Shown: one piece after another, positions 8,206 to 15,499 of the stretch
Position numbering within the stretch: the stretch's first letter is position 1
How the letters are laid out: the number at the start of each line of letters is the position of its first letter
DNA from: Microbacterium sp. LWH11-1.2
GTDB taxonomy: Bacteria > Actinomycetota > Actinomycetes > Actinomycetales > Microbacteriaceae
Direction of reading: 5' to 3'
Assembly: GCF_038397745.1 (NCBI RefSeq)
Contig: NZ_CP151636.1
Span: 558,001 to 622,000, forward strand
DNA: 64,000 nt
The notes under the pieces: model-generated
Databases searched by the model: none
What the model saw: only the letters and a program-made list of their open reading frames with translations
What the model was told of the DNA's origin: nothing
Translations under genes and position numbers: made by a program

Positions 8206-9213
8206 ATGGCGAGCATCGATGAGGTGGCCCGGCTCGCCGGGGTCTCCACGGCGACCGTCTCACGCGCTCTGAGCGGCCGCGGGCAGGTCTCCGCGTCCGC
8301 CAGGGAGCGTGTGCAGGCGGCAGCGCAGACGCTCGGCTACGTCGTCTCCTCGCGGGCCTCGAGCCTCGCCTCGGGGCGCACGCGGAACATCGGCGTCGTG
8401 GTGCCGTTCCTCGACCGCTGGTTCTTCAGCACCGTGCTGTCCGGGGTCTCGGCCGCTCTGATGCGCGAGGGTTACGACATCACGCTCTACAACATCACCG
8501 CCGACAAGGACGTGCGTCGGCACGTGTTCGACACGTTCCTGCGCCGTCAGCGGGTGGATGCCGTGATCGCGGTGTCGATCGAGCTCGACGAGGACGAGAC
8601 GCAGTACCTGCTCGAGCTCGGACTCCCGGTCATCGCGATCGGCGGACCGAACCCGAAGCTCGACACCCTGACGGTCGACGACGTCGCCGTGGCGCAGCTG
8701 GCCACCGAGCACCTCATCGGACTCGGCCACACCGACATCGCGCACATCGGGGCGAACCCCGAGTTCGACCTCGACTTCCACATCCCGACCAACCGACGAC
8801 TGGGTTTCGAGCGGGCGCTGGCGAAGGCCGGCATCCCGCTCAACCCCGCCTTCCTGGAGCCCGCGGACTTCACGGTCGAGGGTGGCTATCGGGCGGCCAA
8901 GCAGCTGCTCGGCCGCCCGGGGCCCCGCCCGACCGCCGTGTTCGCCGCATCCGACGAGATGGCGATCGGTGCGCTTCTCGCTGCCCGCGACCTGGGCTTC
9001 GGCGTGCCGGACGACCTGTCGATCGTGGGCATCGACGGGCATGAGCTCGGGGAGTTCTTCCGACTCACGACCGTCGACCAGTTCCCGCTCGGCCAGGGGG
9101 AGCGAGCGGCGGATGCCGTGCTCGCAAAGCTCTCCGAGCCGGATGCCGTGCGCATCCCGGCCGCCCTGCCGTACGAGCTGAACGTGCGCGGGACGACCGC
9201 CCGACTCGTCTGA
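8206..9213 (+). CDS. LacI-family transcriptional repressor
   Basis: Sugar-responsive DNA-binding regulator, 335 residues. The N-terminal helix-turn-helix is canonical (ASIDEVARLAGVSTATVSRA), followed by the hinge (YVVSSRASSLASGRT) and a periplasmic-binding-protein-like effector domain (FDLDFHIPTNRRLGFERAL). The ATG at 8206 has a GGAGGAACC ribosome site. It follows the GH13 gene and probably represses it through the operator at 6425-6438. An alternative or added target is the operator pair at 2741-2791, since CebR is also a LacI-family protein. Confidence 0.94.
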   Translation: MASIDEVARLAGVSTATVSRALSGRGQVSASARERVQAAAQTLGYVVSSRASSLASGRTRNIGVVVPFLDRWFFSTVLSGVSAALMREGYDITLYNITADKDVRRHVFDTFLRRQRVDAVIAVSIELDEDETQYLLELGLPVIAIGGPNPKLDTLTVDDVAVAQLATEHLIGLGHTDIAHIGANPEFDLDFHIPTNRRLGFERALAKAGIPLNPAFLEPADFTVEGGYRAAKQLLGRPGPRPTAVFAASDEMAIGALLAARDLGFGVPDDLSIVGIDGHELGEFFRLTTVDQFPLGQGERAADAVLAKLSEPDAVRIPAALPYELNVRGTTARLV

Positions 9214-9245: not shown

Positions 9246-9872
9246 TCATGATGCGACGATGAGGCCCTTCGCGGCGCGGGCGGTCTCGAAGCGGCGCTGC
9301 ACGTCGGGCCAGTTCACGAGCTCCCAGAACGCCTTCACGTAGTCGGCGCGCACGTTGAGGTAGTCGAGGTAGTAGGCGTGCTCCCACACGTCGAGCTGCA
9401 GAAGCGGCGTCACGCCGAGCGGGGCATTGCCCTGCTGGTCGAACAGCTGGAAGATCACCGGTCGTGCTCCCACGGAATCCCAGGCGAGAACGGCCCAGCC
9501 CGAGCCCTGCACGCCGAGCGCGGTGGCGGTGAAGTGCGCGCGGAAGGCATCGATCGACCCGAACGCGTCGACGAGCGCGGCCTCGAGCTCGCCCTCGGGA
9601 GCCCCGCCGCCCTCGGGCGAGAGGTTCTGCCAGAACACCGAGTGGTTGATGTGGCCGCCGAGGTTGAACGCGAGGTCCTTCTCGAGCTTGTTCACGTTCG
9701 CGAGGTCGCCGGCGCTGCGTGCCGCCGCGAGCTGCTCGAGCGCGGTGTTCGCGCCGGTGACGTAGGCCTGGTGGTGCTTCGAGTGGTGCAGCTCCATGAT
9801 CTTGCCGGAGATGTGCGGCTCGAGAGCGGAGTAGTCGTACGGGAGCTCGGGGAGCGTGTAGAGAGCGGACAT
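9246..9872 (-). CDS. sodA: Superoxide dismutase, Fe/Mn type
   Basis: Converts superoxide to oxygen and peroxide in the cytoplasm. It has 208 residues, the usual size. Family motifs are LPELPYDYSALEPHISGKIM, the metal-ligand region HHSKHHQAYV, and the C-terminal DVWEHAYYLDYLN that supplies the Asp and His ligands. A metal choice (Mn or Fe) cannot be made reliably. It is the last gene of an operon with flavin reductase (12-bp gap), FprA-type reductase and ferredoxin, so it shares their redox-responsive promoter unless an internal one exists. Confidence 0.96.
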   Translation of the reverse strand: MSALYTLPELPYDYSALEPHISGKIMELHHSKHHQAYVTGANTALEQLAAARSAGDLANVNKLEKDLAFNLGGHINHSVFWQNLSPEGGGAPEGELEAALVDAFGSIDAFRAHFTATALGVQGSGWAVLAWDSVGARPVIFQLFDQQGNAPLGVTPLLQLDVWEHAYYLDYLNVRADYVKAFWELVNWPDVQRRFETARAAKGLIVAS

Positions 9873-9884
9873 GATGTCTTCCTT

Positions 9885-10394
9885 TCAGAGGTGGGTGTCG
9901 TGCGGCAGCGGATGGAAGCGGCGGTCGAGGTAGACGAGCGGCCGCCCGGCGGTTCCGGGAAGCACCTCGAGCACCTCGGCGATGACCACGGTCGACGAGC
10001 CGACCGGGACGGTCTGGATGGGGCGGCAGCGCAGCGCGACGCGGGCTCCGGCGAGGTGCGGCTCACCGGTCGGGAGCGTCGCCCATCCCTGCTCCGTCGT
10101 GAAGCGCTCGGAGCCGCTGACCGCGAACGTCTGCGCGAGAGCGGAGTGCTCGTCGTCGATGAGGTGCACGACGAAGGAGTCGGCTGCGAGGATCGCGCCG
10201 GCGGAGCCGGTCGCCCGGGTCACCGAGAAGACGATCGCGGCGGGGTCGACGGCCACCGAGGCGACGCTCGACGCCGTGAGCCCGACCGGCCCCGCCGGGG
10301 TGCTCGCCGTGATGATCGCCACACCCGCGGGATGTGTGCGGAAGGCCGCCTTGAGCCCGTCGCCGACCGGCGTGGGCACGGGTGCCGTGCTCAT
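9885..10394 (-). CDS. Flavin reductase-like FMN-binding protein
   Basis: A 169-residue protein of the flavin reductase family (split-barrel FMN fold), likely using NAD(P)H to reduce FMN or FAD. Family sequence includes HPAGVAIITASTPAGPVGLT near the N-terminus, the segment VDPAAIVFSVTRATGSA, and the C-terminal GRPLVYLDRRFHPL. The start ATG (10394) overlaps the stop of the upstream reductase by four bases. In this operon it could pass electrons from the ferredoxin/FprA pair, or be part of an oxidative-stress response. No partner monooxygenase is encoded nearby. Confidence 0.88.
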   Translation of the reverse strand: MSTAPVPTPVGDGLKAAFRTHPAGVAIITASTPAGPVGLTASSVASVAVDPAAIVFSVTRATGSAGAILAADSFVVHLIDDEHSALAQTFAVSGSERFTTEQGWATLPTGEPHLAGARVALRCRPIQTVPVGSSTVVIAEVLEVLPGTAGRPLVYLDRRFHPLPHDTHL

Positions 10395-11755
10395 CGAGCG
10401 ACCTCCATCCGCTGCCCCTGCCCGGCGTGCGCGAGCATCTCCGAGCGATCGACGATCTTGGTGCGCTCGCGTCCTCGTTCGGCTCCGGCACCGCGCTCCG
10501 CGGCGTCGATCCGCAGCCAGCCGTCGAGATCGACGGCGCGCGCGAGGTGAGCGATCGGGTCGTCGTCGCGGTCCTCGCGTGCGACGTCGGCGACCGCGAG
10601 ATCGTCCACGAGGTGGGAGACCGTCTGCGCGGCATCCGATTTGGTCGAGCCGATGAGACCGACCGGACCCCGCTTGATCCAGCCGGTGGCGTAGAGCCGC
10701 GGAACGGGTGACCCGTCGACATCCACGACGCGGCCCTCGACATGCGGCACGACGCCCGGATCTGCGGCGAACGGCACCCCGGGAACCGGCGACGACCGAT
10801 ATCCCACAGCACGGTAGACGGCCCCGACGTCGTAGCGCAGCAGCTTCCCGGTGCCGACCAAGCGGCCCAGCTCGTCGGATGCCGTGCGCTCCATCTCGAT
10901 CCCGGTGACCCGGTCGCTGCCGAGCAGCCGGACCGGACGCTGCCGCAGATGCAGGTGGATGCGGCGTGAGCCGGTGCGGCTCGCGGGATCGAGCGCGGCC
11001 CACTCGGTCAGGGTGCGCACGATGATGCGACGCTGCGTGAACTGCGCCATCATCCGCTCGGCGTGCGCGTCGAGCGCGAGCTCATCGGGGTCGACGATCA
11101 CATCGACGTCCTCCTGATCGGCGAGCTCGCGCAGCTCCATCGCGGAGAAGCGCACGTCGGCGGGACCGCGTCGGGCGAAGAGGTGGACGTCGCGCAACGG
11201 GCTCGCAGCGAGCCCGTCGAGCACCGCGTCCGGGGTATCGGTGCGCATCAGCGCCGATGCGGGCTTGGCGAGGATCCTCGTCACATCGAGCGCGACATTG
11301 CCGGCGCCGAGCACGGCGACCGACTCGGCCGTGAGCGGCCAGGTGCGTGTCGTGTCCGGGTGCCCGTCGTACCAGGCGACGAACTCCGCGGCACCGAACG
11401 ATCCCGGCAGGTCGATGCCGGGGATGTCGAGGGCGACGTCGAGGTCGGCGCCCGTCGCGATGATCACACCGTCGTAGGCTGCGCGGAGTGCGTCGACGGT
11501 GACGTCGACACCGATCTCGACGTTGCACCGCAGCCGGATCCGGGGGTTCACGAGCACGTCGTGCAGCGCATCGGTGATCCTGCGGATGCGCGGGTGGTCG
11601 GGGGCGACGCCGTACCGGACCAGGCCGTACGGTGCGGGGAGCTTCTCGAAGAGGTCGATCGAGGCGTGCGGCACGCGCCCGAGCAGGATGTCGGCGGCGT
11701 AGATGCCCGCGGGTCCCGCCCCGACGATGGCGATGCGCGGTTCGGTGATGGTCAT
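10391..11755 (-). CDS. fprA: Ferredoxin-NADP(+) reductase, FprA/adrenodoxin-reductase type
   Basis: Flavoenzyme of 454 residues moving electrons between NADPH and ferredoxin. The FAD-binding Rossmann motif is at the N-terminus ([17 protein letters not shown]), followed by [18 protein letters not shown], typical of FprA. The second nucleotide motif [17 protein letters not shown] is near residue 150, and the C-terminal [20 protein letters not shown] is strongly conserved in this family. It overlaps the ferredoxin gene upstream (ATGA), its obvious partner. The start ATG (11755) is fixed by the FAD motif. Confidence 0.94.
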
Positions 11756-12078
11756 GCGTGCGCCTCCTGGGGTGGGAGGACGGCGACGACGGGGTGGTCG
11801 AACGACAGCATCCCCGTCTTGGCGGCGCCTCCCGGCGATCCGATCTCGTCGAAGAACTCGACGTTGGCCTTGTAGTAGTCCTGCCATTCGCCGGGCAGGT
11901 CGTCCTCGTAGTAGATCGCCTCGACCGGGCACACCGGCTCGCAGGCACCGCAGTCGACGCACTCGTCCGGATGGATGTACAGCGAACGTTCACCCTCGTA
12001 GATGCAGTCGACGGGGCACTCGTCGATGCAGGCCTTGTCCTTCACATCGACGCACGGCAGGGCGATGACATAGGTCAT
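11752..12078 (-). CDS. fdxA: 7Fe ferredoxin (3Fe-4S/4Fe-4S)
   Basis: Small 108-residue electron carrier of the FdxA type. Cys9, Cys17, Cys21 and Cys25, then Cys40, Cys43, Cys46 and Cys50, form the two cluster-binding sets; the wider first spacing is usual where a 3Fe-4S cluster forms. The acidic C-terminal half ([20 protein letters not shown]) is typical of actinobacterial FdxA. It is the first gene of the operon with FprA, flavin reductase and superoxide dismutase. Longer in-frame extensions upstream cross the promoter and are rejected. Confidence 0.95.
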
Positions 12079-12107
12079 CGGGTGGTCTTCGTCCGGGTCA
12101 CAGTGCC

Positions 12108-12138
12108 ACCGTAAAACCTCAACTGCACTTGAGGTCAA
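12108..12138 (-). promoter_or_regulatory. SoxR/MerR-type promoter of the redox operon
   Basis: On the minus strand a -35 TTGACC (12138-12133) and a -10 TACGGT (12113-12108) are 19 bp apart, the long spacing that marks MerR-family activated promoters. The spacer contains the palindrome CCTCAACTGCACTTGAGG (12117-12134), whose half sites CCTCAA/TTGAGG equal those of the classical SoxR box. The downstream genes are redox genes. No MerR/SoxR gene is in the window, so the regulator would act in trans. Confidence 0.85.
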
Positions 12139-12149
12139 ATCGGCGCGAC

Positions 12150-14396
12150 TCAGGCCACCTCGAACCCGGCGGTCAGCAGCACCTCGTCCCGCGACGACGG
12201 TCCCACCAGCAGCTCGAACGCCCCCGGCTCGACGACGCGGATGCCGGCGGCATCCACGATCGTGCAGTCGGCGACCGGCAGCTCCAGCCGCACCCGCACC
12301 GACTCGCCCGGCTCGATGTCGACCTGGCGGTAGGTCTTGAGCTCCTTGTCGGTCCAGCTCACGCTGGTCACGGCATCCCGCACGTACACCTGCACGGTCT
12401 CGCGCACCGGACGCTCCCCCGTGTTCGTCACGGTGATGTGCCCGACGATCGTGTCGTCCACCGCCAGCGCTGGCGACTCGAGCGCGAGGTCGGAGTACTC
12501 GACCGTCGTGTACGACCGCCCTTCCCCGAACGCCCACGCGGGCGACTGGGTGAGGTCGGCGTAGCGGTCGCCGTGCTGGCCGCGGATCTGGTTGTAGTAG
12601 GTCGGCTGCTGGCCCACATGCCGCGCGAACGAGATCGGCAGGCGTCCCGAGGGCTCGACGGCTCCGGAGATGATCTCGGCGAGCGCGCGCCCGCCCTGCA
12701 TCCCCGGGTTCGCCGCCCAGATCACGGCGGCCGCCTGCTGCACGGATGCCGGCAGCACGAGCGGCTTCGACGCGAGAAGCACCACGACCACGGGCTTGCC
12801 CGTCGCGATCACCGCGTCGAGCAGGGCGTTCTGCCCGCCGATGAGCTCGAGCGTCGCGGTCGATCGCCCTTCGCCGACGAGCTCGATGCGGTCGCCCACG
12901 ACGGCGACGACCACATCGGACGCGGATGCCGCCGCGACGGCCTCAGCGATCAGAGCCTCATCCGGCGCGCACGGCTTCACCACCGGCGGTCGCGGCTGGT
13001 GGTCCGGGAAGAACGCGCCCTGCGGGTCCTCCTCCAGGGTGAGGATGTCGGCGCCGCGGGCGTAGGAGACGTTCCAGCCGTCGATGCCCTCCAGTCCGTC
13101 GCGGACGGTCGCGATCATGTCGCGCGGCTGCCCGTCGAGCCAGCCGGCCTGTCCCGACCCTCCCGCCCAGTCGCCGAGCTGCGTCTGCGCGTCGTCGGCG
13201 AGCGGGCCGACGACCGCGACCCGGAGCGAAGCGGTGGCGTCGAGCGGCAGCACGCCGTCGTTCTCGAGCAGCACGATCGAGCGGCGGGCCGTCTCGAGAT
13301 TCAGCTCCGCGTGCGCAGCGCTGCCGACGACGGCATCCAGTTCCGCTCCCGGGAGCCGCGGGTCCTCGAAGAGCCCCAGCTCGAACTTCAGCGTGAGGAT
13401 CCGCGCGGCCGCGGCGTCGAAGGCGTCCTCCGCGAGAAGCCCCTGCGCCACGGCATCCAGAGCACCCTCGAAGAATCCGGGTGTCGTCATGATCATGTCG
13501 TTCCCGGCCCGCACCGCCGCCGCGGCGGCGTGCGCGATGTCGGGCTGGATGCGCTGCTCCCAGACCATCCGCCCGACGTTGTCCCAGTCGGTGATGAGCG
13601 TCCCGGTGTAGCCCCACTCGCCGCGCAGCACATCGCTGAGCAGCCACTCGTTGGTCGTGATCGGCACCCCGTCCATGGTCTGGTACCCGAGCATGAACGA
13701 CCGGCAGCCCTCACGGGCGACCCGCTCGAACGGCGGGAGGAACCAGGACCGGAGCTTCCGTCGGGAGATGTCCGCCTCGCTCGCGTCCCGCCCGCCCTGC
13801 GTCTCGGAGTAGCCGGCGAAGTGCTTGGCCGTCGCGAGGATCGCGGTGGGATCGTCGAGACCGTCGCCCTGATAGCCGCGCACCATGGCACTGGCGAGCT
13901 CGCCGATGAGGAACGGGTCCTCGCCGAAGGTCTCGCTCACCCGCCCCCAGCGCAGATCGCGCGAGATGCAGAGCACCGGCGAGAACGTCCAGTGGATGCC
14001 GGTGACGGCGACCTCCTCCGCCGTGGCGCGGGCGACGCGCTCGAGCAGACCGGCATCCCACGACGCCGCCATGCCGAGCTGCGTGGGATAGATCGTCGCA
14101 CCGGGCCAGAACGAGTGGCCGTGGATGCAGTCCTCGGCGACGAGCAGCGGGATCCGCAAGCGGGTCTCGGCGGTCAGCTCGTTCGCCCGCAGGATGCGCT
14201 CCGGCGAGGTGTGCAGGATGGACCCTGCCCGTCGGCGCAGGATGTGGTCGTCGAGATCGTCGCGTGCGTCGAGCTGCAGCATCTGCCCGATCTTCTCCTC
14301 CAGCGTCATCCGGTCGAGGAGATCGGCGACGCGCTCGGGGATCGGCAGTGCGGGGTCGCGGTACGGGAGGGTGGTCGTCAGCGTGGGAGAGGTCAT
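12150..14396 (-). CDS. GH3 beta-glucosidase
   Basis: Glycoside hydrolase family 3 enzyme, 748 residues, with no signal peptide, so it acts in the cytoplasm on imported oligosaccharides. The N-terminal barrel shows [15 protein letters not shown], and the nucleophile Asp270 lies in LITDWDNVG. The second domain ([20 protein letters not shown]) and a C-terminal fibronectin-III-like domain follow, giving the usual three-domain layout. It is the last gene of the dipeptide-type ABC operon: its ATG shares one base with the permease stop (TGATG). The natural reading is that the transporter brings in beta-linked oligosaccharides that this enzyme cleaves. Confidence 0.94.
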
Positions 14397-15499
14397 CACT
14401 TCGTGTTCTGTGTCTTCGTCATGTTCGTCGTGTTCGGAGACGACGCGGTCTTCGGGGAGGTCGGGATGCTGCGCACGGCGGTGACCGCGTCGTTCACGTT
14501 CAGGCCCTTCTTCTTCATGGCCCTGGCCCGCTCGCCGGCCGAGCGCAGGCGCGGGTTGACGTACTCGTCGATCCCGAAGTTGATGAGCGAGAGCGCGACG
14601 CCGATGATGGCGATGCAGAGACCTGCGGGAACGTACCACCACCACAGCCGGGGGAACGCGCCGTTCTGCTGGGCCCAGAACAGGATCGTGCCCCAGTTCA
14701 GGTTGCTCACCGGGATCACGCCGATGAAGGCGAGCGTGGTGAGGCCCAGGATCGCAGCGGTCACGGTTCCGACGAAGCTCGACGCGATGAGCGCCATGAG
14801 GTTCGGCAGCATCTCGACGGTGATGATGCGGCGCAGGGGCTCGCCGTTCGCGCGCGCCGCCTGGATGAAGTCGCGATTGCGCAGCGACATCGTCTGCGCG
14901 CGCAGCACTCTCGCGCCCCACGCCCATCCGGTCAGGCCGAGGACGGCGGCGATCACGATCAGCGGCGGGTTCTCGAACTGCGACGCGATGATGATGATCA
15001 GCGGGATGCCGGGGATCACCAGGAACACGTTGGTCAGCGCCGAGAGAGACTCGCTCTTCCAGCCGCGCACGTAGCCGGAGATGACCCCGATCGTGATCGC
15101 GATGACCGTGGCGATGGCGGCGGAGAGGAAGCCGACGACGATCACGCCGCGGGTGCCGAAGATGATCTGGCTGAGCACGTCCTCGCCCATGTGGGTGGTG
15201 CCGAGCCAGTGCTCGAACGACGGCGGCTGCCGCAGCGCCGAGCGGTCCTTCTCGGTCGCGCCGTAGGGGGCGATCCAGTCGGCGAGGATCGCGACGAGGA
15301 CGAACACGCCGAGGATGATGAGCCCGGCGATCGACTTGCGGTTGCGGAACATCGCGAACGCCTGCGCGAGCTGCGAGCGGAAGGTGCGCTGCTCCGGAGG
15401 GACGGATGCCGGCGCACGCAGGGTCGCTGTCTCCGGCATCCCCGAGACGACCGGCGATCCGTCAGGGGCGGTGGTTCCGGCGGTGGTGGGAACGGTCAT
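14396..15499 (-). CDS. Dipeptide/oligosaccharide ABC transporter permease, DppC type
   Basis: Inner-membrane permease of 367 residues. The N-terminal cytoplasmic tail precedes the first helix (SIAGLIILGVFVLVAILADW), then the periplasmic loop with HWLGTTHMGEDVLSQIIFGT, the OppC/DppC hallmark. Five more helices follow, with the ATPase-docking loop DFIQAARANGEPLRRIITVE. The C-terminal tail is long and polar, rich in Thr and Asn. The chosen ATG (15499) lies one base after the DppB stop. It belongs to the family often called peptide permeases, but in this operon a carbohydrate substrate is more likely. Confidence 0.92.
   Translation of the reverse strand: MTVPTTAGTTAPDGSPVVSGMPETATLRAPASVPPEQRTFRSQLAQAFAMFRNRKSIAGLIILGVFVLVAILADWIAPYGATEKDRSALRQPPSFEHWLGTTHMGEDVLSQIIFGTRGVIVVGFLSAAIATVIAITIGVISGYVRGWKSESLSALTNVFLVIPGIPLIIIIASQFENPPLIVIAAVLGLTGWAWGARVLRAQTMSLRNRDFIQAARANGEPLRRIITVEMLPNLMALIASSFVGTVTAAILGLTTLAFIGVIPVSNLNWGTILFWAQQNGAFPRLWWWYVPAGLCIAIIGVALSLINFGIDEYVNPRLRSAGERARAMKKKGLNVNDAVTAVRSIPTSPKTASSPNTTNMTKTQNTK

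Follow-up and report, generated by a model that had tools for sequence, protein, structure and literature searches.

A predicted SoxR-operated ferredoxin, FprA, flavin reductase and superoxide dismutase operon in Microbacterium, and the loss of its adjacent soxR

Which regulator reads the promoter of a four-gene redox operon whose promoter resembles a SoxR target, when no soxR gene lies near it? The question is raised by a 64,000-nucleotide stretch of DNA from Microbacterium sp. LWH11-1.2 (hereafter the window; C1:558001-622000 of the one-contig genome G000, 4,223,098 bases). Our analysis makes it highly probable that a SoxR-operated promoter drives the ferredoxin (fdx), fprA, flavin reductase and superoxide dismutase (SOD) genes, and that the one SoxR remaining in the genome, referred to below as type B, acts on this promoter in trans.

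The promoter lies on the minus strand directly before the whole four-gene operon. A -35 element TTGACC (12133-12138) and a -10 element TACGGT (12108-12113) are separated by 19 bp, as a preliminary description of the window had proposed, and re-reading of positions 12138 to 12108 gives TTGACC TCAAGTGCAGTTGAGGTTT TACGGT. An 18-bp palindrome occupies positions 12134-12117 and its arms, CCTCAA and TTGAGG, are perfect; the palindrome of the preliminary description thus stands, yet it had been written as the complement, and the transcribed strand reads CCTCAAGTGCAGTTGAGG. A palindromic box within an over-long 19-bp spacer is the layout of promoters that SoxR activates. Compared with the E. coli SoxR box CCTCAAGTTAACTTGAGG, as printed in the relevant passages of PMC4411124, 15 of 18 positions are equal. 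The likeness to the box of mfsA in Stenotrophomonas maltophilia, CCTCAACTGCAGTTGAGG, is closer (17 of 18 equal, one different); that box is also placed inside a 19-bp spacer, and according to the same passages purified SoxR binds it in gel shifts and leaves a mutated version unbound (PMC4411124).

All four genes are on the minus strand and their family assignments agree with the preliminary description, as does their close spacing. The first, fdx (11752-12078), encodes a 7Fe-type ferredoxin of 108 aa (NF045480 FdxA_Actino, 190 bits; best solved relative 2v2k, E 1.6e-50). It is followed by fprA (10391-11755), the 454-aa product of which is an NADPH-ferredoxin reductase of the adrenodoxin-reductase/FprA type with a PF07992 domain and has adrenodoxin reductase and FprA as its closest solved proteins (1cjc, E 3e-80; 1lqt, E 1.4e-79). 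The flavin reductase (9885-10394; 169 aa; PF01613, 113 bits) is RutF/HpaC-like, yet falls under the equivalog cut-offs, and the last gene (9246-9872) encodes an Fe/Mn superoxide dismutase of 208 aa (PF00081 and PF02777). The junctions fdx-fprA and fprA-flavin reductase are 4-bp overlaps (ATGA), and 12 bp separate the flavin reductase and SOD genes. The functions of the four products are predicted from these matches. Elsewhere in the genome there are two more FprA-like matches (E 1e-60 or better) and, with two PF02777 matches in total, a second Fe/Mn SOD.

The leader between promoter and ferredoxin contains a mini-ORF of 8 codons (12075-12101, minus strand), which starts with GTG 6 nt past the -10 element and whose stop overlaps the ferredoxin ATG. 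Of 51 ferredoxin-type loci examined, 44 have an ATG or GTG 5-8 nt past the -10 element and 7 have none. At 33 loci this codon starts a mini-ORF that closes on the ferredoxin ATGA, at 8 it is in frame with the ferredoxin (a stop intervenes at one of these) and at 3 it is in the third frame. Leader lengths vary by indels while the frame of the mini-ORF is mostly kept. This pattern suggests a leaderless upstream ORF that would be coupled to the ferredoxin gene through ATGA.

Further copies of the box were sought in the whole genome with the pattern TTGACCTCAA-N6-TTGAGG-N3-TA-N3-T, allowing up to 3 mismatches. It matched three places in the 4,223,098 bases, each without a mismatch: the box of the window (12108-12138, minus strand), a second at 921131-921101 of contig C1 (about 10102-10132 of the fetched stretch L012) before the gene for a 467-aa MFS protein, and a third at 1348607-1348577 between a soxR on the plus strand and a divergent gene for a 485-aa MFS protein (PF07690). 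Two of the three boxes thus precede MFS genes. Boxes with 1-3 mismatches and matches to the reversed control pattern were both absent from the genome. Chance similarity, with an ordinary promoter of the housekeeping type before the operon, is a reading for which we found no evidence and to which we attach practically no weight, given these empty control and near-match classes and the conservation of the box over 28 orthologous operons (see below). The MFS gene behind the second box has its ATG 8 nt after the -10 element, and its mRNA is possibly leaderless. A reductase-like gene, which we take to be imine-reductase-like, overlaps the MFS gene of the third box (L013, 4174-5052, minus strand).

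The preliminary description had rightly stated that there is no soxR in the window and had called for a search for a homologue with the [2Fe-2S] cysteines. Such a gene exists at 1,348,644-1,349,057, 0.78 Mb from the operon, next to the third box. It encodes the only protein in the genome above the TIGR01950 cut-off (177.8 bits versus 116.9), is matched by the E. coli SoxR structure 2zhg (E 1.7e-39) and keeps the four cysteines as C-x2-C-x-C-x5-C (CIGCGCLSLKAC), a motif present in 72 of 72 collected SoxR sequences. The alignment pairs E. coli Arg127 and Pro131 with Leu and Arg here, at two positions that reportedly (Sheplock is said to have found this in 2013) tune the sensitivity of SoxR. Eight further TIGR01950 matches, all MerR-like proteins, lie below the cut-off.

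These eight proteins lend some weight to the idea that an activator of the MerR family other than SoxR uses the box, as does the fact that MerR regulators in general share over-long spacers. Box and SoxR were counted in 295 genomes of the genus (box with up to 2 mismatches; SoxR above the family cut-off). The box was found in 84 genomes at 147 places, with 0 matches for the reversed control, and SoxR in 85 genomes. Both occur together in 82 genomes, with box only in 2, SoxR only in 3 and neither in 208 (Fisher p 1e-66, uncorrected for relatedness). The two box-only genomes, G236 and G254, carry 2-mismatch boxes, beside a weak MerR-like gene in one and an MFS gene in the other. Operon-type FprA (at least 68% identity; the next best among the matches listed has 57%) is present in 28 genomes, each of which has SoxR, and in none of the 210 SoxR-less genomes. 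All 28 four-gene operons have the box in its 19-bp arrangement before fdx, so that the spacer is conserved in the relatives as well, and in 22 of the 28 a soxR divergently adjoins the operon (not adjacent in G000, its same-species relative G250, G005, G209, G230 and G149). A box that tracks SoxR in 82 of 84 genomes and adjoins soxR in 22 of 28 operons, as expected for a SoxR regulon, leaves another MerR-type activator very improbable and supports the SoxR control that the preliminary description had suggested.

Gene order was compared in the 27 other four-gene operons and in 33 selected stretches, mostly beside soxR, that cover 35 of the remaining 119 box places. The latter comprise fdx-flavin reductase-SOD (13 stretches, one with a partial fdx and one with a partial SOD match), fdx-flavin reductase (8), flavin reductase-SOD (3), SOD and fdx on opposite sides of soxR (1), a decayed locus in G280 (1), MFS genes only (4) and no tested gene downstream (3). 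At the decayed locus (L095, 2409-4193) the box is intact, most of fprA is gone and the match to the flavin reductase is divided between two frames.

Why, then, is there no soxR beside the window operon? Upstream lies a frame that we take to encode a GH3-type glycosidase (12150-14927, minus strand), and downstream a convergent gene, presumably for a LacI-type regulator (8206-9213, plus strand). Both are conserved flanks: at the 27 other operon loci, some of whose fetched stretches end before the flank genes, the GH3 gene is found at 18, the LacI gene at 18 and both at 13. In the soxR-linked relatives soxR stands between the GH3 gene and the box; in the window only 11 bp lie between the GH3 stop and the start of the -35 element. 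The conserved flanks indicate that the window lineage lost its adjacent soxR (type A) in place and kept the promoter, which accounts for the missing neighbour. A scenario in which the operon instead moved away from soxR is refuted by the same flank genes in many relatives. On a tree of the 28 operons, the presence of a neighbouring soxR has to change twice (2-2 over the bootstraps), so a single loss does not suffice either; by this tree soxR-A was lost at least twice, in a second lineage separately.

With the neighbouring regulator gone, the promoter might be a relic whose box is no longer read, leaving the operon weakly constitutive or decaying. The absence of soxR-A in the window lineage itself and the mostly missing fprA and split flavin reductase match of G280, which is without SoxR-A, would fit such a relic. 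In sharp contrast, the six four-gene operons that lack an adjacent soxR all keep box and 19-bp spacer intact and free of mismatches, the four window genes are open, and the own box of the remaining SoxR is of the same canonical type. We therefore regard a relic promoter as improbable and retain control by a SoxR acting from elsewhere.

SoxR types were compared in a tree of 72 SoxR sequences. Three types were distinguished by their neighbours, namely A beside fdx, flavin reductase or SOD genes, B beside MFS3 genes (the kind in the window genome) and C beside MFS2 genes; 4 of 17 type B rows have no nearby MFS gene, and of 5 ungrouped rows one (L078) lies within A. For each of the three types a branch of the tree has all its members on the same side (supports 98/91 for A, 94/88 for B and 100/100 for C). 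In the genomes of the six operons without adjacent soxR, as well as in G280, the only SoxR over the cut-off is type B. That SoxR-B reads the fdx box is suggested by the similarity of the boxes and by the lack of another SoxR, while its usual neighbour is an MFS gene, and elsewhere SoxR-B is likely to be the switch of this neighbouring efflux gene.

Eight genomes carry both A and B, and their B box is CCTCGAG-N4-CTCGAGG, whereas the B box is canonical in G000, G250, G005 and G133. The residue aligned to E. coli Ser26, a position we assume to lie in the recognition helix, is Thr in the SoxR-B of all eight dual genomes and Ser in the other 64 sequences. The eight proteins form one clade (100/100), and Ser-to-Thr and box change thus count as one event and not as eight. 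A strict rule linking Ser or Thr to the box fails for G075 and G247, which have type B only, with Ser and a box changed in one half. In 6 of the 8 dual genomes the reductase-like gene named above adjoins the SoxR-B-linked MFS gene. Our search of the open-licence literature for residue-level SoxR specificity in actinobacteria found nothing.

The SoxR-B of the window genome is not simply the SoxR-B of its sister genomes: a tree that places its SoxR-B and MFS genes with those of G077, G127, G040 and G197, the grouping seen for the operon, is rejected (p-AU 0.00016). The operon and the SoxR-B/MFS unit thus differ in history, probably because one or the other was replaced laterally. Grouping the SoxR-B of the window genome with all eight dual copies is not rejected (p-AU 0.437).

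The box, the gene identities, the co-occurrence, the synteny and the in-place loss are read from the sequences themselves, and SoxR binding and redox activation are predicted. SoxR appears to switch on the redox operon directly and as one unit. Reduced SoxR on the box would keep the 19-bp spacer in a geometry unusable for the polymerase; a redox-active compound would oxidise the [2Fe-2S] cluster, the spacer would be distorted and fdx, fprA, flavin reductase and SOD would be transcribed. Through FprA-ferredoxin and reduced flavin, electrons from NADPH and NADH could then reach damaged Fe-S centres, redox-active compounds and perhaps SoxR, SOD would clear superoxide from redox cycling, and the two MFS proteins whose genes follow the remaining boxes may export the redox-active compound. 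After the in-place loss of type A soxR, its paralogue, the type B SoxR at 1.35 Mb beside an MFS gene, would serve the operon in trans. PMC5288332 states that redox-active compounds oxidise the S. coelicolor SoxR whereas superoxide fails to do so, and that the protein stays inactive with paraquat; by analogy, paraquat may be a poor inducer here.

No match to PF02508 (Rnf-Nqr subunits) was obtained in the genome while the E. coli control was positive, so the E. coli Rsx route of SoxR reduction appears to be absent. Ferredoxin as the obligate reductant of SoxR is contradicted by several SoxR loci where MFS genes are the sole neighbours of the kinds tested, which makes it at most one SoxR-reducing route. 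The more detailed evolutionary scenario, with a hand-over from SoxR-A to SoxR-B in trans, insulation of the two through Ser-to-Thr and CTCAAG-to-CTCGAG changes, and feedback from ferredoxin and flavin reductase as SoxR donors where Rsx is absent, is put forward tentatively, and we lean slightly against it as a whole.

Direct control of SOD by SoxR is not unheard of. Saenkham reportedly described it in 2007 for sodBII of Agrobacterium tumefaciens, which is not known to be more than a single SOD gene without electron-transfer genes, whereas in the window SOD stands together with them. In E. coli, sodA belongs to the SoxRS regulon. So does fpr, as stated in the pertinent lines of PMC5302815. E. 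coli shares the sensor family and the box with the window genome, but its SoxR acts through SoxS, as summarised in parts of PMC4146615, whereas here the SoxR box directly precedes the output genes, which argues for direct control. Streptomyces coelicolor resembles the window genome in that an actinobacterial SoxR acts on a handful of genes for redox enzymes and a transporter; the six genes named in the regulon description of PMC4146615 (ecaA-D, SCO2478 and SCO0320ext) include neither SOD nor ferredoxin, and neither superoxide dismutase nor ferredoxin is mentioned anywhere in that text, unlike the window, where SOD, 7Fe-type ferredoxin, FprA and flavin reductase share one SoxR-box operon. The soxR-mfsA pair of S. 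maltophilia, divergent, with a 19-bp spacer and a near-identical box, has the layout of soxR-B and its MFS gene in the window genome; soxR-mfs pairs are also mentioned for several actinobacteria, and the passages on mfsA describe it without a ferredoxin/SOD operon (PMC4411124).

Given the S. coelicolor regulon, the soxR-mfs pairs and the reported Agrobacterium case, the principle of SoxR control is already known, and the novelty lies in the operon and in how it evolved. Neither a Microbacterium SoxR regulon nor an fdx-fprA-flavin reductase-SOD operon was found described in the open-licence literature, as judged by titles and abstract starts. The genus offers a natural experiment in which one promoter occurs with its own SoxR, with a substitute SoxR, or in a genome where a further SoxR has a changed box of its own. 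Differences of single residues and bases among them bear on two questions, how SoxR paralogues stay separate and what re-reduces SoxR without Rsx.

Outside the genus, 349 genomes of the family (7 of them Microbacterium) were searched with a 28-base pattern and up to 1 mismatch. The box was found in 67 (reversed control, 2 matches); of 30 family loci among the matches listed, the box adjoins fdx, flavin reductase and/or SOD in 22, an MFS gene in 7 and none of these in 1. At order level SoxR is present in 114 of 347 genomes, and fdx, flavin reductase or SOD lies near 11 of 40 selected SoxR places. The box (up to 3 mismatches) stands at 27 of 80 named FprA loci; those of at least 67% identity belong to Microbacterium in 20 of 21 cases and to Plantibacter in one. 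The Plantibacter sp. VKM Ac-2880 locus (L141, 3834-5356) has a perfect box, a ferredoxin match over two frames and a full-length fprA match, with no match for flavin reductase or SOD at this locus. SoxR boxes before SOD, ferredoxin or flavin reductase genes recur in Micrococcales-type genera: three Leucobacter loci read soxR-box-fdx-fprA-flavin reductase-SOD, and one Cellulomonas locus reads box-fdx-SOD-fprA with soxR beside fprA. The loci point to a putative circuit, recurrent in several actinobacterial genera, in which SoxR would directly control SOD and electron-transfer genes and which would add to the Streptomyces and proteobacterial models. In one Microbacterium genome (G157; L103, 5743-6256) soxR lies between two boxes that face SOD and fdx, the operon being split around its regulator, and similar layouts occur in another family (L266 and L267).
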